32,432 bases of DNA. Source: Gammaproteobacteria bacterium (GTDB lineage Bacteria > Pseudomonadota > Gammaproteobacteria > Thiohalospirales > Thiohalospiraceae). A model generated the notes under the pieces. That model was given only the letters and a program-made list of their open reading frames with translations, had not been told where the DNA came from and searched no databases. The number at the start of each line of letters is the position of its first letter. The first letter of the stretch is position 1. The translations under genes and the position numbers were made by a program. The stretch lies in assembly GCA_029883105.1 (NCBI GenBank), contig JAOUJT010000004.1:1-32432 (forward strand), read 5' to 3'. Positions 1,086-29,159 of this stretch are shown piece by piece.

Positions 1086-3503
1086 TTATAGGTACTTACG
1101 TACATAATGTAAAAAATCGTCATAATCCAATGGCCGACTGTAATAATTGCCCTGAATAATATGTGCGCCATGTTCGTACAGGTATTCCACCTGCCCCTCC
1201 GTCTCGACCCCTTCGGCCACTATATTTAAATCCAACTGCGCGGCCATCGCAATAATGGCGGCACACAGGCGAGCGTCTGCCTCATCGGTTTCGATATCAC
1301 GAATATAACTGCGGTCTATCTTGATCTCACTAAAGGGAAAGTTTTTCAAATAACTGATGGCAGCATATCCCGTACCAAAGTCATCCAGCGCCAGGGTGAA
1401 ACCCGCCTTTTTCAGTAACAGTAGTTTGGAGATATTGGTCTCACTCACATCCATCAGCAAACCTTCGGTAATCTCCAGTTCGATATCCGAGGGACTCAAA
1501 CCATTAACAACAAAACTACTGCAGAGTAGTTCTACAAAATCGTCTTCCTGTAATTGCCGCGAGGAGACATTCATTGCCAGACGCAGGTCATGTAATCCCT
1601 CCTGCTTCATACGAAGGAGATCTCGCTGGCATCGTTGTATCAACCATTTGCCGATCTCGACGATTTGACCACTCTCTTCCGCGAGAGGAATAAATTCTGC
1701 TGCCGCGACCACGCCCAATTCTGCATTATTCCAACGTAGCAATGCCTCCATGCCAATGACTTCATGTTTTGCAATATCGATCTTTGGCTGATATTGAAGT
1801 TCAAATTCGTCATGGTCTACCGCATAGGCTAGTCGCATCTCCAGTTCCAAACGGCGCTCCACATCCGCATTCATTCGCGCATCATAGAAACGATAGGTAT
1901 TGCGTCCTGCTTGCTTGGCTTTATGTAATGCCGAATCGGCATAACTGAGAAGATTCTCGGCAGTAATTCCATGTTCCGGATAGATCGACATACCGATACT
2001 GCATCGCAACATGATCTCCTTCCCTTCGATGACACAAGGACTGGCGACTGAGCGCAGAAGTTTTCCCGCCAGTGCTTCTGCTTTTTTCAGGCCCTGGAAT
2101 TTCGGTACCATAAGCAAAAACTCATCACCGCCCCAACGAGCCAGACTGTCTATATCACGACATGATTGTTGCAGAATTTTTACAACGTGGACCAACACCT
2201 TGTCACCATACTCATGCCCAAGGGTATCGTTAATATGTTTGAAGTGATCCAGATCGATAAACAGGCATAACAGATGCTCGTCGTTCAGGTCGGCACGCTT
2301 CACCGCCTGTTCCAGCCGATCCGTAGCCAGACGTCGATTGGCCAACTTGGTCAGCTGGTCAAAATTACTTTCCTGCAATAAGGCTTCTTCTGCCTCACGG
2401 CGGTCAGAAATATCAGAATGAAAATGGATCATACCCAATCTACCATCGGCAAAATGCATCGGGGTCAGGGTATAGGACTTCCAGCTGACTTTAGCCTCAT
2501 CTTTTACCTCCAGGTTCATCACCGGCAGTCTGTCTGCCAGATTTTGACAAACCGGGCATAAATCGATCTCGATAGAAGGATGAAATACGCTGTGGCAATT
2601 TTTGCCCATTAAGATTTGTTTGCCTGCTTTTGCCTCATGCTGTGCGGTTTTATTGGCATCTTCAATGAGGCCATTCTCATCCACCAGGAGAATGGAAAAT
2701 GGAATGGCATCATAAATATTGTCACTCTCCGCCGAAATGCTTATCGACTTATCGCTTAACCACCCACGTAAGGCCAGCAGCAGAAAATTGTAGGTAAAAA
2801 ATTTCAACACCAAAGACAAGTAGTGCATATACGCCGACTCAAGTGCAAAGGGAGTCAATAACAGCTCTGCCGCCAATGCAAATAGAACGGCCAGCATGAC
2901 GTACCAATAGGTAATACGAGCCAACCTGTGTAGCTGACTGTATAAACTGATGATGGCTGCCAGCAATAAACCGGTATTAATCGAGTGCCAGCCAAAATAG
3001 AAACCTGCGAAGGAAGCGAAGTGTTCGCCATACTCCGGCAGATAGTCGGCCATGGCCAGCATCAGTCCGGCGGCACCGATTAAAAGATACGCACCACCAT
3101 ATGCCAGCAGAGGCAGACGCCAGCGATAGGCCCAGATGGCAAACAGAATAACCGTGGATTCCAGCAGGTGTGTCAACCACAATAGTGAACGGTGACCATC
3201 GTCACCATGCTGCATCGTCGGTGTTATAGATATGCCGCTCAATGTTGCCAGCATCAGTGCCAGGACAAAGATGTATCCCATGGCGACATAAGACAAGAAG
3301 TGATATTTGTTGATCGCGTGAAAACGCCACAGGGCAAGAAGGAAGATGAACAATAGACTCAGATTTACCCAGGCCAAGCTTACGGCCAGGCTGGTGAATT
3401 CAAGGGGATTTACGCTAAGCAGGAAGATCGACGCAAGACTAAGTAAAATGATCTGACTTTTTTCTGATAATCCGGACTGAATCCACGTTAAAGTGTTCTG
3501 CAT
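1086..3503 (-). CDS. Membrane PAS-GGDEF-EAL cyclic-di-GMP synthase/phosphodiesterase
   Basis: This 805-residue protein should make and/or degrade cyclic-di-GMP at the inner membrane. Residues 15-250 hold about seven or eight hydrophobic helices. A PAS domain follows (about 260-365), then GGDEF (380-545) and EAL (555-800). The GGDEF site is intact (GGDEF 458-462), and an inhibitory I-site RxxD is present at R449-D452, exactly five residues upstream. The EAL domain keeps all expected motifs: EALLR 586-590, N645, the glutamate in EITE 677-680, DDFGTG 707-712 and EGVE 764-767. Both activities are therefore possible; in such proteins one often dominates. The PAS domain carries cysteines C303, C316 and C319 in a C-x12-CPVC arrangement that could bind a metal or sense redox. 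The ATG start follows CAGGGA. The family call is firm; the signal is unknown. Confidence 0.95.
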   Translation of the reverse strand: MQNTLTWIQSGLSEKSQIILLSLASIFLLSVNPLEFTSLAVSLAWVNLSLLFIFLLALWRFHAINKYHFLSYVAMGYIFVLALMLATLSGISITPTMQHGDDGHRSLLWLTHLLESTVILFAIWAYRWRLPLLAYGGAYLLIGAAGLMLAMADYLPEYGEHFASFAGFYFGWHSINTGLLLAAIISLYSQLHRLARITYWYVMLAVLFALAAELLLTPFALESAYMHYLSLVLKFFTYNFLLLALRGWLSDKSISISAESDNIYDAIPFSILLVDENGLIEDANKTAQHEAKAGKQILMGKNCHSVFHPSIEIDLCPVCQNLADRLPVMNLEVKDEAKVSWKSYTLTPMHFADGRLGMIHFHSDISDRREAEEALLQESNFDQLTKLANRRLATDRLEQAVKRADLNDEHLLCLFIDLDHFKHINDTLGHEYGDKVLVHVVKILQQSCRDIDSLARWGGDEFLLMVPKFQGLKKAEALAGKLLRSVASPCVIEGKEIMLRCSIGMSIYPEHGITAENLLSYADSALHKAKQAGRNTYRFYDARMNADVERRLELEMRLAYAVDHDEFELQYQPKIDIAKHEVIGMEALLRWNNAELGVVAAAEFIPLAEESGQIVEIGKWLIQRCQRDLLRMKQEGLHDLRLAMNVSSRQLQEDDFVELLCSSFVVNGLSPSDIELEITEGLLMDVSETNISKLLLLKKAGFTLALDDFGTGYAAISYLKNFPFSEIKIDRSYIRDIETDEADARLCAAIIAMAAQLDLNIVAEGVETEGQVEYLYEHGAHIIQGNYYSRPLDYDDFLHYVRKYL

Positions 3504-3587
3504 TCCCTGACCAATTTGTAGAGGATAGACGTGGCAAATCGCCGTTGTGCCGCTTTATTCGGCGTCAGGCGCTAAGGTAGAAGTATA

Positions 3588-4307
3588 TCATGCTGTGCCG
3601 CTATCCACATGGCCACTGATCGAGGCGATCTCCATTGGACTTAAACTACGGTATTCCCCGAATGCCAGGGATTGATCCAATTCTATGCGCCCAATCTGAC
3701 TGCGGTGCAGGTGGTGTACGTGATTACCCAGAGCCGCAAACATTCTCTTTACTTGATGATACTTGCCCTCATGTATCACCAGACGAGCCTTTAGTGGTGA
3801 GATGATCTCCAGCTCCGCAGGATGGGTACGTTTTTTCTCTCCCTCCAGCCAGATGCCCTGGGCAAACTTCTCTACCAATTCGGGCGCTAATTCTCTGTCC
3901 ACATCCACCCAGTAAACCTTGTTACATTGTTTTCGAGGGGTAATGATTTGATGTGTCCATTCACCATCATCGGTGAGCAACAACAGTCCGGTCGCGTCCT
4001 TATCCAGTCTTCCGGCAATGTGCAACCTCTCTTTATTCGGCACATCCAATAGATCGATCGCGGTAATGTGGTTTCTGTCTCGTGTAGCGCTGACAATATC
4101 TTCAGGCTTGTTGAGCATGTAATACCGGTATTGGGCATATCGAACCGAGGTTCCGAACAGCTCAACTACATCCGTCTCTGTGATCTTCATCGCCGAACTG
4201 GAAGCCAGGACACCGTTTATTTTAACGTTCTGCTGTTTAATCGCCTTTTTAACCTCAGAGCGACTGAAATCGGTAGATTGTGCGAGGAATTTGTCGAGCC
4301 GGATCAT
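3588..4307 (-). CDS. rsuA: RsuA-type 16S rRNA pseudouridine synthase
   Basis: RsuA converts U516 of 16S rRNA to pseudouridine during small-subunit assembly in the cytoplasm. The 239-residue product has an S4 RNA-binding domain at residues 1-50 (starting MIRLDKFLAQ). The RsuA/RluB/E/F catalytic domain follows, with the signature GRLDKDATGLLLL, in which D102 is the catalytic aspartate. KVYWVDVD and the late EGKYHQVKRMF motif are also typical. Length fits RsuA. The gene is embedded in the cyclic-di-GMP block, 33 bases downstream of the degenerate GGDEF gene and 84 bases upstream of the GGDEF-EAL gene, all on the same strand, so it may share a transcript with them. RluE or RluB paralogues are the main alternative; the short S4 linker and length favour RsuA. 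Confidence 0.88.
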   Translation of the reverse strand: MIRLDKFLAQSTDFSRSEVKKAIKQQNVKINGVLASSSAMKITETDVVELFGTSVRYAQYRYYMLNKPEDIVSATRDRNHITAIDLLDVPNKERLHIAGRLDKDATGLLLLTDDGEWTHQIITPRKQCNKVYWVDVDRELAPELVEKFAQGIWLEGEKKRTHPAELEIISPLKARLVIHEGKYHQVKRMFAALGNHVHHLHRSQIGRIELDQSLAFGEYRSLSPMEIASISGHVDSGTA

Positions 4308-4340
4308 GCAGGTGTCGCCAGCAATATGAGAATAGCACCA

Positions 4341-5345
4341 TTATATATGTGCAGCGACAGACTGTCTCTTACTGCTATCCAATGCCTGCTGAGCCAGGGC
4401 CAGCAATTCGATATGGCTCTCATGCTGCAAAGCGGCAATACCATAGCGCATATCCAGAGAATCTAATCCAGGCAAACGCATGTGACAAATAATTTGGCCT
4501 AATTTTGCCAGTAATTTCTCACTACCTTGCTGATCACTCTCCGGGACGATAATCACAAAACTGTTGTCTTTCCACTTTGCCAGTGTATCACCACGGCGGA
4601 TGTTGGCAGAAACACAGGCCAACAAAGCACGTTCAAGCTTACTGCCCGGTGTTATTACTGCCTTATGCCTGTCTGATGCAGAATAAAATTCAAACATCAC
4701 CAGCGACATCTTGTGCTGATAACGCTGAGTATTCGCCACACTGGTTTCCAACACACGCAGCAAAGCCTTGGGATTGAACACCTCGCTCTCTTCGTCGTAG
4801 CTCATATAGGATTTCAGTCTCGCCCTATCGCGGCGATGCACTATGCCCTCGATCAACAAGGCCGCCCACACCACCGAGTAGGCCAGCAACACCAGTCCTA
4901 TATACTCAAATTGACTGACCTTCGACAGCAAATCAATCTCACGCACAGCTACTAACATGGCAAGAAATAAGCCGCTAAGCGTATTAAATAACCACAGAGG
5001 ATTGAGAAAATAGAACAGCAAGGGCAGTAGTGGAATAATCAGTGTCTGGATACGGACATCCACGTCGGATAGATATATTGCCAGACATACATAGGACAGC
5101 ACCGCATTAGCCAGTACACTGTAGAGGCCAGGCCAGGAATATTGCTTAACCAAAACATGTGTGCCAACTATCGCTATGGTAAAGGCAAAAAGCACGGGTA
5201 GAGAAAGAATATCACTCGCCACCTTCGACCATAGCTGAACACAGGCGATGAAGACAAAACCCAGAGCGATGCTTATTTGTGCCATTAGCTGACGTTTAGC
5301 CCAGACTTCCCCTGTCTCGATAAATACTCTTTTTAGGTAGCTCAT
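4341..5345 (-). CDS. Membrane protein with degenerate GGDEF domain and preserved I-site
   Basis: This 334-residue protein has about six membrane helices (residues 20-170) followed by a cytoplasmic GGDEF-like domain (about 180-334). The active site is ruined: the GGDEF position reads KDNSF (259-263), the usual DxLTGLxNR opening is EESEVFNPKALL, and the metal-binding LDxDxFK segment is MFEFYSASD. It should not make cyclic-di-GMP. An RxxD I-site (R250-D253) nevertheless sits exactly five residues before the degenerate motif, the spacing seen in the intact cyclases of this window. I infer that it may act as a membrane cyclic-di-GMP receptor, comparable in principle to the degenerate GGDEF of PelD. 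It lies directly upstream of rsuA and about 70 bases downstream of the REC-EAL gene. The start is an ATG; the upstream region has no strong Shine-Dalgarno sequence. Confidence 0.85.
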   Translation of the reverse strand: MSYLKRVFIETGEVWAKRQLMAQISIALGFVFIACVQLWSKVASDILSLPVLFAFTIAIVGTHVLVKQYSWPGLYSVLANAVLSYVCLAIYLSDVDVRIQTLIIPLLPLLFYFLNPLWLFNTLSGLFLAMLVAVREIDLLSKVSQFEYIGLVLLAYSVVWAALLIEGIVHRRDRARLKSYMSYDEESEVFNPKALLRVLETSVANTQRYQHKMSLVMFEFYSASDRHKAVITPGSKLERALLACVSANIRRGDTLAKWKDNSFVIIVPESDQQGSEKLLAKLGQIICHMRLPGLDSLDMRYGIAALQHESHIELLALAQQALDSSKRQSVAAHI

Positions 5346-5412
5346 TCTTATAATTCGGTTATTGGCTTATTTGAGCGACCCACCAGCCCCTCATTCATTC
5401 GTGTACAGTACA

Positions 5413-6582
5413 CTATAAATGTGCGTGTGCTGTTAAATAGTCCACAAAATCATCAGGATTAACTGGGCGCGAGTAGTAGTAACCCTGGCAATAATCACAG
5501 CCTTGCGCTATCAGCTCATTGGCAACATCCAGTGTTTCCACCCCTTCAGCGAGGACATGCATACCCAGCTCATGACTCAATTCAATACTTTTGCTTATTA
5601 TTATCCCTGCATCTTGTTCAAAGATATCCATAACAAAACTTTGATCCAGCTTCATCTCTGTAAAAGGGACGTTTTTTAATTGTTGCATGGTCGAATAACC
5701 CGTGCCGAAGTCGTCTATAGATAAGTACACACCTTTCATCCTTAAGCGCGTCAACACATCCAGACTCACTGCGTAGTTTTCCACCAGCGCAGATTCTGTT
5801 ATCTCTATAGTAAAATTATCTGTACGCAATTTGGCAGTATTTATCTTCATGACTAAATCATCGGTCATACTTACATCACCCAATAATTTGGCCGGCATAT
5901 TAATGGCGATATTCAGATCGTAACCCAAGGCCTTTAAGCGGGAACAAAATGCGATGGATTGTCTTATTACCTCGCGTGTAATCTCCACTATCGCACCAGA
6001 CTTTTCTGCTACAGCAATAAACAGACCTGGTGGAACAATATTACCTTCCGCATCACGAATGCGAACCAGCGCCTCTGCACCAAACACCTGATTATTACTC
6101 AGGTCTATTTTCGGCTGATACTGGACGAATACTCTATCCTCACTAATGGCTTGCTCAATCTCTTGCGCAGACAATTCTTTACCTGCCATGATCCGTATCG
6201 CGGCAGGACTTTCACATTGGCTTATTGTTTTTCGCAAGTGTTTTATACTAAAGGGTTTGTTGAGCTCAGTGGCCACCGTTATCCCTTGTGTTTTTGCCAT
6301 GATAGATGCTGACTTTAAAACCCGTTTATCAAACCCACTCATTAATATCAGTTTTGCCTTTAACTTTATCTTCTCCAAATAACGGATCACTTCAATACCA
6401 TCTTCATCTGGCATCATCAGATCAAGAAAAAGTATCTCCATGTTGTGATCAATTTCTTCCTTAAATGCTTTCACGCTGGTAAAGGTCCTTACCTCATAGT
6501 TCATGTCTGATGCAACCTCTCCTATAAGGAGACATATGGCTTCGTCATCATCAAGAACAGTTAGTACGGGCTTGGATTCCAT
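5413..6582 (-). CDS. Response regulator with REC and EAL domains
   Basis: The product pairs a receiver domain with a cyclic-di-GMP phosphodiesterase domain. Counting from the chosen start, the receiver (about 1-125) has the acidic pair DDD near residue 11, phospho-acceptor D54 in LFLDLMMPDEDG, and the conserved lysine in NKPFS. The EAL domain (about 140-385) is complete: EALVR at 170, the asparagine in INMPAKL, EITE, DDFGTG and EGVET, so it should hydrolyse cyclic-di-GMP. The frame extends to an ATG at 6663, but those extra 27 residues do not resemble receiver sequence, so the ATG at 6582 (MESKPVLTVLDDDE) is preferred. Neither start has a convincing ribosome site. No histidine kinase is adjacent. 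It is transcribed divergently from the HD-GYP gene. Confidence 0.9.
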   Translation of the reverse strand: MESKPVLTVLDDDEAICLLIGEVASDMNYEVRTFTSVKAFKEEIDHNMEILFLDLMMPDEDGIEVIRYLEKIKLKAKLILMSGFDKRVLKSASIMAKTQGITVATELNKPFSIKHLRKTISQCESPAAIRIMAGKELSAQEIEQAISEDRVFVQYQPKIDLSNNQVFGAEALVRIRDAEGNIVPPGLFIAVAEKSGAIVEITREVIRQSIAFCSRLKALGYDLNIAINMPAKLLGDVSMTDDLVMKINTAKLRTDNFTIEITESALVENYAVSLDVLTRLRMKGVYLSIDDFGTGYSTMQQLKNVPFTEMKLDQSFVMDIFEQDAGIIISKSIELSHELGMHVLAEGVETLDVANELIAQGCDYCQGYYYSRPVNPDDFVDYLTAHAHL

Positions 6583-6767
6583 TCGAACGAATACTCTCAT
6601 GGCATGGCATGGCAAAAAAGGGGACATAAGACAGTAATGGTGTGTAGATAGCTTCTGTCGCATGAATACTACTACCTAATATATACAGGATAGGCTAACT
6701 ATCTGATAATCAACCGTGTAAATTAATTGTAAAAGAGGCTTCCAGGGATTAGCTTTTTTATCGAATA

Positions 6768-6790
6768 TGCCGTAATTTCTATATACGGCA
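6768..6790. repeat. Inverted repeat in divergent intergenic region
   Basis: Perfect 7-base arms TGCCGTA and TACGGCA are separated by 9 bases. The repeat lies between the divergent REC-EAL and HD-GYP genes, about 60 bases upstream of the HD-GYP start, in AT-rich DNA. No T-tract follows on either strand, so it is not an obvious terminator. It could be an operator, but nothing identifies a regulator. Confidence 0.35.
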
Positions 6791-6852
6791 CTAATTACAA
6801 TATATTTCCAAATTAAATCAATGGCCTAAGTCAAACGGCAAGTTCAGGGCGT

Positions 6853-8199
6853 ATGAGCGAAACAAAGAACCAGGTTGAAGACAGTCATTATGTTGCCCAC
6901 GTCAAAAAGGCGGGGAGTACACATGATATATCCACCAACGAAGATATTATCAGCGAAAGTGGCCATAAGCTGATCGCCAAGAATGTCACCCTTAGTGGTG
7001 ATATGTACGAAAAATTGATGCAGCATAAGCTGTTGAAGCCGCTAGACATGTCGATCAGCGTTGGTGGACGTCTGGACAGCAATACTCTGCAGGAGGAGTT
7101 TGAAACAATATTTCGTTCTGAACCCTTGTGTAAGGCCATTCTGCAACATGCTGAAAACGCCAACCTTATTAAAGCCAGTCTTAAGAATATCAAATTACCC
7201 GAGGCGATCGCCGGTAAAATGACCGTGATGCGTAGCAGTATGCCGGAAATGTTTCGTCATTCCCTGATCACCGCTTTGCTTGCCAGCTATAGCGGCACAC
7301 TGTGTGGGTTTAACGACAAGGAATGCATCGTTCTCGCCACCGCTGGTCTTCTACACGACATGGGCAACATGCACGTTGATCCGCTGATCTTTGCCAAGCG
7401 GGAGCGCCTGGACCTCCCCAACCTGAAGCAATTCTACGCCCATCCGATTATCGCCTTTATGATCATGCAAAACTTTGCCGAGTTTAAACCTCTGATCAGC
7501 GCTGCGGTGGTGGAGCACCACGAACGTATGGATGGCAGTGGTTACCCACATCAACTGCAAGCCGATATGCTGTCTCCGTACGGTCAACTCTTATCTATCC
7601 TTGAGGTATTTGTTAGCGTCTATACCCGTTCCAATAGCCTGAAGCAGGCCTTAACCGTCATGCGCACTAATATGCGGCACTTTCCAGCAAAACTGCTCGC
7701 CCCGGTGGTTACCGCATTAAACAATCTATCTATCAATGAGCCGAGGGCTGACATCGGTCATTTAAAACAAAATATCGTGCAAAAGCTGGTACTCATAACC
7801 CAGGCCATTACCGCCTGGCAGCAACCATTCTTAATGGTGAGTGACAAAGATGCCGCTAAATCTCCTGCCAGCCTCACCACTTTACACCTGGACCATATCA
7901 AGATTTCTATGATCCGTTGCGGACTAATTAATCACCATTTGGAAAATGTGACCAAACTTAATATCGAAAACATGCTGGCCAATAATTTTGACAATGAGCT
8001 GGAATATCTCGTCGAGATGTCCACCCTTGTAGATGACCATGTCTATCAACTGGTCGAATTGATCCGTAACCTGCTACGTCGTTGGCCGATTATTGATAAA
8101 GACATTAAAACAGACAAGGATACGCCACTTATCAACTGGATCAGCTTCGTCGATCAGATGTTGGGGAAATTACCACACAATATGTTTTGCGTGCGCTAA
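6853..8199 (+). CDS. HD-GYP domain cyclic-di-GMP phosphodiesterase
   Basis: This 448-residue protein probably hydrolyses cyclic-di-GMP. The central HD-GYP domain (about 125-300) shows H136 in MFRHSLIT, the HD pair at 168-169 in GLLHDMG, a histidine at 197, the HH pair at 222-223 and the diagnostic DGSGYP at 227-232. The usual HDxGK reads HDMGN, so the lysine after the HD pair is replaced; metal ligands appear kept. Flanking regions (1-120 and 300-448) are helical and unrecognised, with no signal peptide or membrane segment. The start ATG follows a weak AGGGCG site. The gene ends at a bidirectional terminator. With the neighbouring EAL proteins it gives the block two unrelated types of phosphodiesterase. 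Confidence 0.88.
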   Translation: MSETKNQVEDSHYVAHVKKAGSTHDISTNEDIISESGHKLIAKNVTLSGDMYEKLMQHKLLKPLDMSISVGGRLDSNTLQEEFETIFRSEPLCKAILQHAENANLIKASLKNIKLPEAIAGKMTVMRSSMPEMFRHSLITALLASYSGTLCGFNDKECIVLATAGLLHDMGNMHVDPLIFAKRERLDLPNLKQFYAHPIIAFMIMQNFAEFKPLISAAVVEHHERMDGSGYPHQLQADMLSPYGQLLSILEVFVSVYTRSNSLKQALTVMRTNMRHFPAKLLAPVVTALNNLSINEPRADIGHLKQNIVQKLVLITQAITAWQQPFLMVSDKDAAKSPASLTTLHLDHIKISMIRCGLINHHLENVTKLNIENMLANNFDNELEYLVEMSTLVDDHVYQLVELIRNLLRRWPIIDKDIKTDKDTPLINWISFVDQMLGKLPHNMFCVR

Positions 8200-21209: not shown

Positions 21210-22562
21210 TTAAGCCGTTATTAGTCTATTCTTGCCGTTATCTTTGGCGATGTACAGCGCCTCATCCGCCAAACGTATCAAGTCGTCGCTACATTCCAAG
21301 CGCTGGTCCGGGCAGGCCGATAGTCCCAGACTAACCGTTTGCCTGATCTGTTGTTCATTCTCGATGATAAAGCTGTCGTCTATGGTACGTCGTATGCGTT
21401 CACCGACCTGCTGTCCATCCTCAAGAGAGGCACCGGGAAGTATGATGAGAAATTCTTCGCCACCATAACGCACCAATACATCCCCCTCACGCAGGTTATC
21501 TTTAATACAACGCACCACGTTTACAATCGCCTTATCACCCACCATATGACCATAGGTGTCGTTTAATACCTTGAAGTCATCGATATCCAACATCATCACG
21601 GCGAGGCTGGAGTTGTCACGTACCACACGCGAGTATTCTTCTTCCAAACGACCCAGACCGAAGCGCCGATTATATACATTGGTTAACGGGTCCAGCACTG
21701 CCAACCTTTGCAGGCGTTCATGACTGAGCGCATTACGCAGTGCCAAGCCAAGTCCTGGTGCATAGCGTTCTAGCACGGGTTCCATATCCTGAGCGTATTC
21801 ATTTTGCGATGCCAATATCACCATCGCTTCGGAAACACCTTTAAAAAATATCGGTACCAACAGCGCTTCGCGTGGACGAAATTCTGTTAATACTCCGGCC
21901 ACCTGAATGTCATCGGGGAGGTGGATACGTTGTATTCTGCCTTGTATCAGACCATTCAGGACCAAATCATTCTGTTCCAACCGAACGGGATCATGGATGC
22001 CTTTGCTGGCCATTAGCATCATTTGCCCATCATGTACCACATAAAAGGCACCCGCTAATGAGCCACTATCCTCCAATAGCTGTTGCAATGCCTGCTTGGT
22101 CAAGGCTTCCACATCCAGATGTGCAGAGACCATTTTGGTAAAACGGCTTATGTCCTGCCCAACCTGATTCGAGCGGCTCAGTGAATCTACCAGTTCATTA
22201 AAACTGCGAGCGGCCTCACCCACGTCATCATCGGAATCGACCGTCAATTTAAGCGTCGCGACATCAAGGCGCAGCTCTTCATGTACAGCTTGCTGCTTTA
22301 TCACTGCGGAGACACTGCGCATACGTTCTGTTTGCAATGCCAGGCGTTGTCCTATGATGCTTCGTACTAGAGCGTAGTTGATGAGCGCGACGATGATGCC
22401 AGCGATCAGCGTTGCGCTATAAAACTCCAAGGTCAGCACCTGGGTCTTATCAAAACCCAGTGTCAGCATAAAATAAGGAAAGGAAAATCCCATAAGGAAA
22501 CCGAAGCCCAACATCCACAATGCAAGGTCGACGAACAATTTTTTTGATATTCTTGGTAACAT
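21210..22562 (-). CDS. Membrane GAF-GGDEF diguanylate cyclase
   Basis: This 450-residue protein should make cyclic-di-GMP from two GTP. Two membrane helices (about 10-35 and 45-68) are followed by a HAMP-like or coiled linker (70-140), a GAF-type sensor domain (145-280) and a GGDEF domain (285-450). The active site GGEEF (367-371) is intact, as are DPLTNVYNRR and the metal-binding LDIDDFK. An I-site RxxD (R358-D361) lies five residues upstream of the motif, so product inhibition is likely. The ATG follows a GGGAGAA region. It is cotranscribed with the small membrane protein downstream. Unlike the two membrane GGDEF proteins at the left of the window, it combines a short two-helix anchor with a GAF sensor. 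Confidence 0.94.
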   Translation of the reverse strand: MLPRISKKLFVDLALWMLGFGFLMGFSFPYFMLTLGFDKTQVLTLEFYSATLIAGIIVALINYALVRSIIGQRLALQTERMRSVSAVIKQQAVHEELRLDVATLKLTVDSDDDVGEAARSFNELVDSLSRSNQVGQDISRFTKMVSAHLDVEALTKQALQQLLEDSGSLAGAFYVVHDGQMMLMASKGIHDPVRLEQNDLVLNGLIQGRIQRIHLPDDIQVAGVLTEFRPREALLVPIFFKGVSEAMVILASQNEYAQDMEPVLERYAPGLGLALRNALSHERLQRLAVLDPLTNVYNRRFGLGRLEEEYSRVVRDNSSLAVMMLDIDDFKVLNDTYGHMVGDKAIVNVVRCIKDNLREGDVLVRYGGEEFLIILPGASLEDGQQVGERIRRTIDDSFIIENEQQIRQTVSLGLSACPDQRLECSDDLIRLADEALYIAKDNGKNRLITA

Positions 22563-24076: not shown

Positions 24077-24298
24077 GCCGCTCTCCTGAGAAGGCTATCT
24101 TCTATAGCTATCATCGGCCCCCGTCAGGCAGGCTTAAGCACCATACTGGGTCAATCAATGATCTATTTTTTAGTTGTAAACATTTCCAACTGGTTAATGA
24201 GCAAAGTTAATGTAGAATCTAGCCGACGTATTATCGATTTTATTGAGTTACTCTAACGTAAGCATGAAGCGGCATGCCATCTTTGGGGCGCAAACTGA

Positions 24299-24440
24299 TC
24301 GCTAATCCGGGCTGTGGAGGCCTTGCTTGCCTGTACTCGATCCGTAGTGTGTGTAGCAATAGAACTTGACCACTACACCATCATTACTGAACAACTTTGT
24401 CATGAAGACGAGAAAATATTTCTTCACCTCCTTAATAACG
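24299..24440 (+). pseudogene. Possible remnant of a GGDEF domain
   Basis: The frame opening at 24299, after an in-frame TGA, reads VVCVAIELDHYTIITEQL and then CHEDEKIFLHLL. This aligns without gaps to the GGDEF segment LDxDHFKxINDxxGHxxGDxxL, but several conserved positions are changed (N to T, D to E, both G and the D lost). Neither the GGDEF motif nor the rest of the domain can be found downstream. The surrounding 441-base gap (24077-24517) holds no other gene; a 32-codon frame at 24158 is not convincing. This is either a degraded cyclase fragment or a chance match. Confidence 0.3.
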
Positions 24441-24517
24441 GTCATTTACTCATCGATTTCACTATCAGTCCTTTAATTATATTGCGCCCATTATCTAGAC
24501 ATGGTTGTATCAGATAT

Positions 24518-24838
24518 TTACTCTTCCGTTATGCGATAGGCATCCATATCACTGCCGATAATATCTATACCGAGCATAATAATCTTGCCCTGATAACGTT
24601 CCCGTCCATCACTGGCAAATTCAAACCGGAACACTCGCTTAAAACTCACACTACCCTGTCTGTTTCTTGCCAGAGACAATCCCTTTAGTGCCACGGAATC
24701 ATCCAACAACATTACCTGAGCCTTTGTACAAAGGTGTTTGGCAATTCCTGTCGCTATTTCCTTTGCGCGAAGGGAAGCCAGCCAAAACCAGATCACACCG
24801 GCAAGCAGCAGACCTACAATTATTTCTTCACTCGTCAT
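24518..24838 (-). CDS. DUF3301 membrane-anchored protein
   Basis: This 106-residue protein has one N-terminal membrane helix (IIVGLLLAGVIWFWLASL) followed by a soluble domain of DUF3301 type: AKHLCTKAQVMLLDDSVAL, the LARNRQG stretch, and VFRFEFASDGRERYQGKI. Length fits the family, which is common in gammaproteobacteria and has no known function. Its ATG lies eight bases after the stop of the decayed secreted-protein gene, so it was probably the last gene of that operon; it now depends on transcription through the pseudogene or on an unseen promoter. Confidence 0.85.
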   Translation of the reverse strand: MTSEEIIVGLLLAGVIWFWLASLRAKEIATGIAKHLCTKAQVMLLDDSVALKGLSLARNRQGSVSFKRVFRFEFASDGRERYQGKIIMLGIDIIGSDMDAYRITEE

Positions 24839-24845
24839 ACACTAC

Positions 24846-25410
24846 TCAGATATTTAACTTTTCTTTTATTGCCGATTCCAGATCGTTTGGCTCTAAAACA
24901 TGGCGACCTTGCGGATGTAAATTCTTATAACCAAAAATCTCACCTTGAGTCTTTTTAGCCAATGAATCTTCGTATCAAAGTCTTGCGCAGATAAATACTT
25001 GGCCCATGAATCTATCACATACTTGCAGTCATCATCGCCTGTTTTAATCAACGCATGCTTCTTCCAACTTTCTAGTTGCGGCTTAAACCCTTCGCTTTCA
25101 GAACAAACCTTTACTATCTGTTCCAGATCATAAACGGCTCCAGATGCAGACCGATTATTATCCGCATTTATGCCGGCAAGTTTGCTGACGGGGTACTGAG
25201 CGCAATCATACCCCTAAAGTTCACATTTCGATATAAATCTATTTCTAATATAGAAGCGGGATCTATGGATTCCTCAAAGCTAACTATATATATCCTTTTT
25301 ATTTGGCACGGTTACAATCTCAGGAGACAGTAAGGTATAACGTTCCAGAAGCTTCTAAGGATGAATAACAACCTGCATATTTCCGATATTAATGTTTTTG
25401 TAATAAACGA
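24846..25410 (-). pseudogene. 3' part of a decayed secreted-protein gene
   Basis: Coding sequence continues here from the short secreted frame at 25411-25620 but changes frame repeatedly. In order on the minus strand one reads VYYKNINIGNMQVVIHP, an in-frame TAG at 25355-25357, then LLERYTLLSPEIVTVPNKK. A frame change near 25285 gives SFEESIDPASILEIDLYR. A change near 25205 gives SASGAVYDLEQIVKVC and later CKYVIDSWAKYLSAQDF. A change near an A5 run at about 24955 gives GEIFGYKNLHPQGRHVLEP, ending at a TGA at 24846. Joined, it would have been a secreted protein of roughly 250 residues. I do not recognise the family. One nonsense codon and about four frameshifts indicate real decay, although homopolymer sequencing error could explain single events. 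Confidence 0.65.
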
Positions 25411-25620
25411 TTATACAGACTGTGAATTTTTGTAAATAATCGATTGCATGCCTTCAAGATGACTAAAGTACACACTCCAGGATTCAAATTGTTTTATTCT
25501 TGTATAATTATTTCCATCCTTGATATAAACCCCATAATATTTTATCGATTCGAATTTAGCATATAGATTTGCAGAACAAACCATTGAAAACAGAGCAGCA
25601 AGAATCACAGACATCCTCAT
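25411..25620 (-). CDS. Short secreted protein, probably 5' fragment of a broken gene
   Basis: This 69-residue frame starts with a clear signal peptide (MSVILAALFSMVCSANLYA, probably cleaved near residue 21) and continues KFESIKYYGVYIKDGNNYTR. It ends abruptly. Directly downstream, in another frame, sequence of matching character resumes (VYYKNINIGNMQVVIHP), so I read this as the intact front part of a once longer secreted protein rather than a complete small gene. No strong ribosome site is visible before the ATG. It lies about 50 bases downstream of the RquA-like gene on the same strand. An independent small secreted protein remains possible. Confidence 0.5.
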   Translation of the reverse strand: MRMSVILAALFSMVCSANLYAKFESIKYYGVYIKDGNNYTRIKQFESWSVYFSHLEGMQSIIYKNSQSV

Positions 25621-25672
25621 CGTAAACGCCCTTTGTTAACATTTTCTTATACTACAAAATAAAACATAAAAT

Positions 25673-26461
25673 TTACACATCAATAATTCTAAATTCAGTG
25701 ACACGATAAAAACCCGAGAATATATTCGTATGGTATATGACTTCTATGTCCTTGCCATAAGGTCGTGCCAAATCTTTAAGTAATACGGTGATATCTTCTT
25801 GCCAATAACCAGCCAAGAATGGCTCCAGTCGGATTAAAACCCAACGACAAACAAAACATCTATAGAGAAAGTGCTCGACAGGTAAAGCCCCGTACTCTGT
25901 ACACAATAAGCGCCCTCCCGGCGAGATAACACGCAAACATTCAGAAAGCGTGTTCCTCCTCGCCTTTGCTGGCATTTCATGCAAGAGAAAGAACAACACC
26001 ACCGTGGAGAATGTATCCTCTTTATAGGCAAGCTGCTCTGCATTCATCCTGCTCGCAAGTAGCTTCTTATTGCCTGAAAGTTTTCTCCGAATATTATCGA
26101 GCTGTACCTTGGCCACATCGGTAATATGCAAAATCTCTGGTGAAATACTTTTAAGGATATTTGGTGTTAGAGAGCCATATACACAAGAAAGTTGTAATAT
26201 TCGCTCGCTTTTTATGACTTCTATCCGTTTCATGGTTGTCGTCATCAGCTTCTTGTATTGAAAAAACAAGATCCCATTGATGATAAATTGATGATCAAAA
26301 AACCAAACAGCAGGTCGCCATAGATAGGCCCACCAGTAATGCCGAGCAAGATACTGAGGTATGCCATCGAGAAAATAGTGGTAGAACTTCAATTTTATGC
26401 GCATAGGTAATGTTATTTCACAAATATACGATAAATCATCATCTTGCTTGCGGCCACACAT
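25673..26461 (-). CDS. rquA: RquA-like rhodoquinone biosynthesis enzyme
   Basis: This 262-residue protein has a class-I SAM-binding fold and resembles RquA, which uses S-adenosylmethionine to convert ubiquinone to rhodoquinone, a low-potential carrier for anaerobic fumarate reduction. RquA-like features are YLARHYWWAYL (37-47) in the N-terminal extension, LQLSCVYGSLTP (89-100) in place of the normal glycine-rich motif I, QLDNIRRKL (120-128), LFFLLHEMP (156-164) and SECLRVISPGG. In remembered RquA sequences the CVYG motif is followed by D; here it is S, and the C-terminus is divergent. The ATG at 26461 has GGGAT upstream; M20 (MRIKLKFYHYFL) is an alternative. The gene is AT-rich, diverges from the histidine kinase, and looks laterally acquired. 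A different SAM-dependent enzyme of the same subgroup is possible. Confidence 0.7.
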   Translation of the reverse strand: MCGRKQDDDLSYICEITLPMRIKLKFYHYFLDGIPQYLARHYWWAYLWRPAVWFFDHQFIINGILFFQYKKLMTTTMKRIEVIKSERILQLSCVYGSLTPNILKSISPEILHITDVAKVQLDNIRRKLSGNKKLLASRMNAEQLAYKEDTFSTVVLFFLLHEMPAKARRNTLSECLRVISPGGRLLCTEYGALPVEHFLYRCFVCRWVLIRLEPFLAGYWQEDITVLLKDLARPYGKDIEVIYHTNIFSGFYRVTEFRIIDV

Positions 26462-26813
26462 TAACCACTATCCCGGTACAAATATTGCTGTAGAACATCT
26501 ATTAATTCGGCTTAACACTACCCAAATGTATCTTATGGACACTAAGACAAGCGTGATGGTATTCGAATGCTGGACCTATTCATGCTATTGCATAACGGTC
26601 GAAATATTACTTTCACTAACTGTATGGTTTTATCGTCTATAAAGTTTTGAGTCTTTCATTAAAACTTAGTAACAAAAAATGATGAAAACGTTAACTTGTT
26701 TATATTTATAGCTACTTTGTATTCGTTCTATTTAGATAAAATGCTATTGTGTCAAAACACTGCGATGCCTACCTTAACCAAGGCCACTGCACCCTAAACA
26801 CTCAGGTTTTTAC
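26462..26813. promoter_or_regulatory. Divergent AT-rich intergenic region
   Basis: These 352 bases separate the RquA-like gene from the divergent histidine kinase gene and must contain both promoters. No gene is visible. TTGTAT near 26716 and TAAAAT near 26736 resemble promoter elements for the kinase, but the 14-base spacing is too short. No clear operator was found. Confidence 0.35.
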
Positions 26814-29159
26814 ATGAATTTAACAAACCAGTCTGTCCAGACGCGAAATACAAATTGGTTACTACTTGCTCTTTTTGCACTATTTCTGCTGGCCTGGTTC
26901 ACCCCTGATCTGACCATTTTGGAAGGTGTTGTACTTATGTCGCTGCCAACGCATATGTTTGCAGAGACATTTTCTATTATCGTCTCCATCCTTGTTTTTG
27001 CTCTTATTTATAGTAGCCGAAATGATGATCAAAAATACAATCTATTTGTGCTTGCCGGTGCATTTCTTATCATAGGTTTATTGGATTTTGCACACACTAT
27101 ATCCTACCCTGGTATGCCAGATTTTGTAACACCAGGCAGTCCTGACAAATCCATTTATTTTTGGCTGGTGGCACGATACATTGCAGCCATTGGCCTACTT
27201 ATAACTGCACTGCAACTACTTAATGTTTCAATTCGTTTACCAAATCGACATTGGATGCTATTTGCAAGCATATCACTCACAGCCTTTTTCTATTGGCTGG
27301 GTCTATATCATTTAGATATTCTTCCACGTACTTTTATCGAAGGCCAGGGCCTAACACCTTTCAAAGTATGGGCTGAATACGGAATCATTGCCATACTACT
27401 GGTACCTGCTATAGTTTTTCATCTGCAGGCAAAAAAACAACAACCCTACGACGCTCATAGTCTTTTTGCTGCAACTATAATTACTATACTTAGTGAATTG
27501 TGTTTCACCTTGTATGGAAATATCACTGGTTTATTTATTTTTATGGGACACGTGTACAAGGTCATTGCTTATATCTATATCTTTAAAGCAATATTCCTAT
27601 TTGTGGTTAGAGAACCCTATCAAAAATTGTACCAAAGTGAACAGTACAATCGCACATTATTTGAAAGTGCAACCATTGGCCTTGCCTTATGCAAAACCGA
27701 TGGCACTCTGGTCGATATCAATCAAGCATACGCTGATATCATTGGTCGCAGCATAGAGGAAACCAAAGGTTTAACCTACTGGCAGATCACACCGGACGAT
27801 TATACCAGCCAGGAAGAGGTACAACTTAATATACTTGGTGCTACAAAGCACTATGGACCCTATGAGAAAGAGTATCTACATAAAGATGGGCACAGGGTTC
27901 CTGTACGACTCACTGGCAAACTTATTGAAAGAGATGACGAGAGTTTAATCTGGTCAAGTGTTGAGGATATTTCAGAGGAAACGGCTGCACAATATGCACG
28001 TTACGAATCTGAGCAACACTTGCGACAGTTGGCTGAACATATTCGCGAGGTGTTCTGGCTGAGGGATATCAGAAAAAACATTATAATTTATGTCAGCCCT
28101 GCCTATGAAACTGTATGGGGCCAGTCTTGTGAAAGTCTATACAAGGACCCGGCATCCTTTATAGATGCCATTCACCATGAAGATCGTGACAGAGTACTAC
28201 GCGCCATCCAACGCCAAAGCCAAGGTCCATATATGGAGGAATACAGAATTGTACGCTCGGATGGTTCAATCCGCTGGATTAAAGAACAGTCATTTCCAAT
28301 ACAAGATCAAAACGGTGTTACCTATCGTATTGCGGGTATTACGGAAGATATTACTAGCGAGAAGTTCACCCAGGATCTTCTCGAACAAAGAGTTGAAGAA
28401 CGCACAGATAGTCTACATAAAAAAGAAGCTGAGTTAATTGCCGCCAAAGAAGAGGCTGAACGTGCCAACCTGGCCAAGTCTCAATTCCTCTCCAAGATGA
28501 GTCACGAGTTACGGACTCCGCTTAATGCCATTCTGGGATTTTCTCAGTTACTCGAGATTGATACCACATTAAATGACAACCAAAAAGATTCTATTAGCGA
28601 AATCATACATGGCGGAAATCATTTATTATCACTGATAAACGAAATTCTTGATCTTGCCAAGATTGAGCATGGTAATTACGAACTAAAACGGAAATCCGTT
28701 GATGTTCGTGACGTCCTGAAAGAATGCATATCACTATCTACTCCCTTGCGCAATCAGTATAAGGTATCGTTGACTGTTAATCTTGACACCAATAATAAGA
28801 TGAATGTCTATGCTGATACCACCAGACTAAAACAAATATTACTTAACCTTATATCTAATGCCTGCAAATATAATACCAAGGGTGGGTTAATAGACATTGC
28901 ATGCGAGCTTACGGCTGAACATATGATCCGCGTAAGTATCAAAGACACCGGCAAGGGTATCTCTGAAGCTAACCAAAGCCATCTATTCGAACCATTTAAT
29001 CGTCTAAATGCCGAGTCCAGCGGCATCGAAGGCACCGGTATCGGACTGACGATTACAAAGCAATTAATAGAATTAATGGGCGGAAGCATTGGTGTTAAAA
29101 GCAAAATAGGTGAGGGCAGTACGTTTTGGATTGAGCTGCCGGCATACAAGAAGGATTAA
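26814..29159 (+). CDS. MASE3-PAS-PAS sensor histidine kinase
   Basis: This 781-residue kinase senses through a MASE3 membrane domain (about 11-265, typical HMFAETFSIIVSILVFALIY and LLDFAHTISYPGMPDF), then two PAS domains (about 278-390 and 400-515), a coiled coil (520-555), a HisKA domain with phospho-acceptor H564 in KMSHELRTPLNAILGF, and a HATPase with N-box LNLISNACKYN (N682), DTGKG (711-715) and GTGIGL (740-745). All catalytic motifs are intact, so it should autophosphorylate. It carries no receiver or Hpt domain, and no response regulator is adjacent, so its partner is encoded elsewhere. The gene is more AT-rich than metH or the Bat operon. It diverges from the RquA-like gene, a possible functional link in respiration control. 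Confidence 0.94.
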   Translation: MNLTNQSVQTRNTNWLLLALFALFLLAWFTPDLTILEGVVLMSLPTHMFAETFSIIVSILVFALIYSSRNDDQKYNLFVLAGAFLIIGLLDFAHTISYPGMPDFVTPGSPDKSIYFWLVARYIAAIGLLITALQLLNVSIRLPNRHWMLFASISLTAFFYWLGLYHLDILPRTFIEGQGLTPFKVWAEYGIIAILLVPAIVFHLQAKKQQPYDAHSLFAATIITILSELCFTLYGNITGLFIFMGHVYKVIAYIYIFKAIFLFVVREPYQKLYQSEQYNRTLFESATIGLALCKTDGTLVDINQAYADIIGRSIEETKGLTYWQITPDDYTSQEEVQLNILGATKHYGPYEKEYLHKDGHRVPVRLTGKLIERDDESLIWSSVEDISEETAAQYARYESEQHLRQLAEHIREVFWLRDIRKNIIIYVSPAYETVWGQSCESLYKDPASFIDAIHHEDRDRVLRAIQRQSQGPYMEEYRIVRSDGSIRWIKEQSFPIQDQNGVTYRIAGITEDITSEKFTQDLLEQRVEERTDSLHKKEAELIAAKEEAERANLAKSQFLSKMSHELRTPLNAILGFSQLLEIDTTLNDNQKDSISEIIHGGNHLLSLINEILDLAKIEHGNYELKRKSVDVRDVLKECISLSTPLRNQYKVSLTVNLDTNNKMNVYADTTRLKQILLNLISNACKYNTKGGLIDIACELTAEHMIRVSIKDTGKGISEANQSHLFEPFNRLNAESSGIEGTGIGLTITKQLIELMGGSIGVKSKIGEGSTFWIELPAYKKD

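Follow-up and report, generated by a model that had tools for sequence, protein, structure and literature searches.

An RquA-like protein of a gammaproteobacterial genome from a third clade shared mainly with marine iron-oxidizing bacteria

A gammaproteobacterial genome encodes a true relative of RquA, in a separate branch shared mainly with marine iron-oxidizing bacteria. RquA converts ubiquinone to rhodoquinone, a low-oxygen electron carrier. The gene lies in a 32,432-nucleotide stretch of contig JAOUJT010000004.1, which was analyzed whole and is called the window here (Table 1). Its best explanation is an enzyme from a third clade of the RquA family (clade C), sister to canonical RquA, that makes rhodoquinone from ubiquinone, and we consider this reading fairly probable.

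Table 1. Features of the window. Coordinates are positions in the window.
Feature	Coordinates	Strand	Basis
Low-GC stretch (about 0.38–0.42) with rquA and the MASE3 kinase gene; probably acquired	24077–29159		Composition; congener comparison
rquA-like gene, clade C	25673–26461	−	NF038261, 180.4 bits (cut-off 175); tree
Motif I region ILQLSCVYGS, residues 88–97, in which the SAM glycine motif is replaced as in RquA	26167–26196	−	Alignment
His161-Glu162 (with M163), aligned to the UbiE/Coq5 Arg-Asn dyad; invariant in clade C	25973–25981	−	Alignment
Low-GC histidine kinase gene, MASE3 membrane sensor and PAS	26814–29159		
Cyclic-di-GMP gene cluster (GGDEF, EAL, response regulator-EAL, HD)	1086–8199		
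Another GGDEF protein gene	21210–22562		

The rquA reading frame encodes 262 amino acids, and the plus strand there is stop-rich. An earlier note on this DNA had picked out the segments HYWWAYL, CVYG, QLDNIRRKL, and LFFLLHE, all of which are present in the minus-strand translation. The start codon of most relatives corresponds to codon 20 (MRIKLKFYHYFLDG), so a 243-amino acid protein starting at about 26404 is possible, and the first 19 residues of the frame may be untranslated.

Homology to RquA, as claimed in the earlier note, is borne out by the match to the NCBIfam RquA equivalog model NF038261 (E = 4e-53), which passes the cut-off, and by 55–62% identity to Mariprofundus proteins. These are the nearest relatives of the query, together with proteins from Rhodospirillales metagenome-assembled genomes (MAGs; 56–59%). 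Against the UbiE/MenG models the query scores at most 39 bits, well short of the curated cut-offs of 158 or more. Pfam gave generic class I methyltransferase domains only, and a sequence search of solved structures found distant methyltransferases only. An AlphaFold2 model from seven sequences is weak (pLDDT 62.7) with an unreliable N-terminus. The predicted class I fold is the sole feature accepted from it, and its PDB matches include yeast Coq5 (4OBW).

NF038261 was searched against 143 genomes of the host's class. Six genomes scored 225–314 bits, and ten, including the host, scored 170–183 bits. Phylum-wide, the low-score group is made up mostly of one family. Its member G160 encodes a protein (L079) that is a duplicate of L003 from Mariprofundus micogutta, which identifies the family as Mariprofundaceae. 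The many high-scoring families of the same phylum appear to be Magnetococcia, and the Magnetococcus marinus RquA has been shown to work (PMC11707229). Clade C scores range from 155 to 186 bits, with about half the members under the cut-off, so the database naming of clade C is arbitrary.

The phylogeny was rebuilt with 99 proteins and a UbiE outgroup, replacing a first tree that was poor in alphaproteobacterial canonical sequences. Canonical RquA makes up a single clade of 53 rows (100/100), split into two subclades; judging by composition, these are similar to groups A and B of Stairs et al. 2018. The query falls outside this canonical clade, in which R. rubrum itself was not identified among the sequences of the set. 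The 38-row clade that contains it (95/92) also holds sequences from Mariprofundaceae, from Rhodospirillales, and from scattered members of the host's class. The first tree too places it outside the canonical clade and in clade C. Judged from these trees, clade C is a third clade of the RquA family, sister to canonical RquA. An AU test that grouped the query with A+B gave a borderline p = 0.055, in a poorly posed comparison that also allows A+B nested beside the query. The earlier note had asked for a phylogeny with verified RquA proteins, and clustering outside the canonical A+B clade is close to the outcome that it held against its own reading. The RquA-like proteins L160–L170 have a degenerate motif I (IASG, ATFG, NSYG) and are nested in the A-like subclade. 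Their genomes are about 1.2–2.1 Mb, apparently reduced, and alphaproteobacterial, the class of genome G510.

Clade C appears to be undescribed so far. Stairs et al. found rquA in seven bacterial orders, none of them Mariprofundales (PMC5953543). A literature search of main texts found no report of RquA in Zetaproteobacteria. Carriers of clade C make up 31 of 78 Zetaproteobacteria species, with a patchy distribution even within Mariprofundus. Further members occur in some Rhodospirillales MAGs and in scattered members of the host's class. Genome G359 has two clade C copies (L070 and L097) on different branches, which its 5% estimated contamination may explain.

Residues were counted in 40 clade C and 42 A+B proteins, with eleven degenerate alphaproteobacterial sequences left out of A+B. 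The query retains residues specific to RquA and missing from UbiE, namely Q90, C93-V94-Y95, W44, Y46, Q120, K127, H161, E162, P164, E213, W220, and Y252. An N-terminal YWWAY block is common to clade C and canonical RquA and is not found in UbiE. The published motif I marks of RquA, Gln for Asp and Val for Gly (PMC7813818), are present as Q90 and V94. H161-E162 aligns with Arg-Asn of UbiE. The proposed general base of Coq5 is Arg201 (PMC5289526), which in our own reading would be the arginine aligned to H161-E162. A metal or catalytic role of the His-Glu pair in RquA is proposed here.

Four positions distinguish clade C from canonical RquA. D115 is the equivalent of R. rubrum D118 (SAM ribose) and N140 that of D143 (SAM adenine), with the same 25-residue spacing; Asp143 is thus not kept in the query. 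Asn occupies position 140 in 36/40 clade C and 2/42 A+B proteins, and also in E. coli UbiE. The R. rubrum D118A/D143A double mutant is dead, and it is the only mutant of the two residues tested (PMC9814641). Because only this double mutant is known to be dead and two A+B proteins also have Asn, N140 is not decisive against RquA. Position 189 is Glu in 39/40 clade C and Asp in 40/42 A+B proteins. His is missing from position 191 in 39/40 clade C proteins (the query is on the side with Gly/Ala) and present in 39/42 of A+B. Position 253 is Arg in 35/40 clade C proteins and Gln in all 42 of A+B. The earlier note had flagged the Ser after CVYG (position 97) as a divergence, which proved uninformative: 18/40 clade C proteins have Ser, the position varies in canonical RquA, and the canonical-clade protein L014 has Ser. 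On alignment evidence, the informative differences are positions 140, 189, 191, and 253, not 97. The idea of a histidine swap between positions 57 and 191 was rejected, as L014, L042, and L020 break the pairing.

These four positions, fixed in clade C and in part UbiE-like (E189, N140), favor the strongest alternative. Clade C would then be a separate quinone-modifying SAM enzyme, built on the RquA scaffold and perhaps with its metal site, that takes another quinone or catalyzes another SAM-dependent reaction and makes no rhodoquinone. This is also favored by the occurrence of clade C mostly in genomes without the O2-independent ubiquinone pathway, and in microaerophilic iron oxidizers, unlike canonical rquA. 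However, clade C has the His-Glu dyad, a replaced motif I, and YWWAY in common with canonical RquA, and UbiE lacks them; a few proteins inside the canonical clade (e.g., L154 and L159) likewise lack His191 and Asp140. We consider a different enzyme rather unlikely.

The pathway contrast was measured by UbiV, which is present in 25/29 canonical carriers versus 5/31 clade C carriers, one of the five being a weak match below cut-off. The difference has a Fisher p of 7e-8 that is inflated by relatedness and becomes p = 0.10 without the two dominant groups. Carriers of clade C therefore often appear to depend on O2 for ubiquinone, the present host excepted. Among published rquA carriers, 73/84 have the O2-independent ubiquinone pathway (PMC11707229).

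The host genome (3.03 Mb, 391 contigs, 90% complete, 2.97% estimated contamination) encodes UbiA, UbiG, a UbiE of its own (L008), UbiT, UbiU, UbiV, SdhCDAB, NadB, and RuBisCO. Neither MenD nor a fumarate reductase or second FrdA-type protein separate from Sdh was found in this 90% complete genome. Its complex II is one SdhCDAB (sdhA_forward, 895 bits). The search for a rhodoquinone-type fumarate reductase suggested in the earlier note thus returned no dedicated enzyme, only an ordinary SdhCDAB. The congener G532 has dsrA and no ubiV, and the host has ubiTUV and no dsrA match, a difference in respiratory gene content.

Ubiquinone amination is the most likely activity of the query, judging from the conserved core, and our best guess, which we hold as probable, is that the clade C gene makes rhodoquinone. 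SAM would be bound in a class I methyltransferase fold with an RquA-type motif I, and Mn2+ would sit at or near His161-Glu162. A methoxy group of ubiquinone would be replaced by the SAM amino group, yielding rhodoquinone. The substrate would be available at low oxygen because the host UbiTUV makes ubiquinone without O2. Rhodoquinol could then drive the single SdhCDAB backwards. Fumarate respiration by this route is possible, a proposal with no specific support and weaker than rhodoquinone synthesis. Of the earlier note's reading, the homology to RquA stands; the query lies outside the verified A+B clade, and rhodoquinone is its presumed product. When a divergent GWC2-55-46 rquA was tested in E. 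coli, no rhodoquinone was formed (PMC13386864).

The rquA-like gene is native to this assembly and was probably acquired by the host. It is flanked by metH (80% identity) and a MoxR-DUF58-VWA operon, and the same flanks occur on one contig of G532. The gap between these flanks is 12.6 kb in the window, with rquA inside, and about 4.7 kb in G532, without rquA. GC content is 0.41 for rquA and the adjoining MASE3 kinase gene versus 0.55 for metH. Two other genomes of the genus have no rquA, nor does most of the family; one family member, G538, carries a clade C gene that is more distant. Acquisition is probable because the low-GC segment is missing from the matching stretch of G532. Uneven occurrence and this missing segment also support the patchy distribution and transfer between lineages described in the earlier note.

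Recent acquisition, low GC, and absence from the two same-genus genomes would fit a host copy that is non-functional or decaying. This is improbable, as the frame is full-length and the checked family-invariant residues are all kept, except for the usual clade C differences. A zetaproteobacterial contaminant contig would account for closest protein relatives that are mostly Mariprofundaceae, in an assembly with 2.97% estimated contamination, but is very improbable because the metH and MoxR-DUF58-VWA flanks match same-genus G532 best, on one contig, and the window encodes a protein with DUF3301, which is mainly gammaproteobacterial.

The kinase gene is divergently oriented to rquA and was possibly co-acquired. 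In three Mariprofundus genomes (L136:9439–11875, L140:9130–11566, and L003:6833–9208), rquA lies between genes for a CPA2-type antiporter and a small PGPGW membrane protein in the same orientation. No neighbor gene is common to the whole of clade C. The window also encodes several cyclic-di-GMP proteins (Table 1). No match was found in a plasmid collection, no relative in viral contigs, and no FNR box beyond chance within the window. No tRNA or Rfam family was found.

Clade C could, tentatively, be a widespread and unrecognized third RquA-like enzyme of microaerophilic lithoautotrophs, making rhodoquinone in iron oxidizers or another modified quinone, and it would mark an intermediate stage from UbiE-like methyltransferases to canonical RquA. 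Genome-based inference of rhodoquinone depends heavily on HMM cut-offs, and the one in NCBIfam divides clade C nearly at random. Should clade C make rhodoquinone, about 40% of sampled Zetaproteobacteria species would have a low-potential quinone pathway of which no literature report was found. Such a quinone in iron oxidizers could ease reverse electron flow to NAD+, and reverse electron transport models for marine iron oxidizers would need revision. If clade C does not make rhodoquinone, present rhodoquinone annotations contain false positives, and the differing residues indicate what makes RquA aminating.

Features that the query has in common with RquA (NF038261; R. rubrum Q2RPC3; groups A and B) are the class I SAM fold, the Gln and CVYG of motif I, the YWWAY block, Asp115, His161-Glu162, E213, W220, and Y252, and it scores above the curated cut-off. 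It differs in its third-clade position, in N140 for Asp143, E189 for Asp, Gly/Ala for His191, and Arg253 for Gln, and in a longer C-terminal part; its rhodoquinone-forming activity is putative. With the UbiE/Coq5 C-methyltransferases, it shares the class I SAM fold and, with E. coli UbiE, Asn at position 140. Unlike them, it has a replaced motif I and His-Glu for the Arg-Asn dyad, and it scores far under the UbiE cut-offs.
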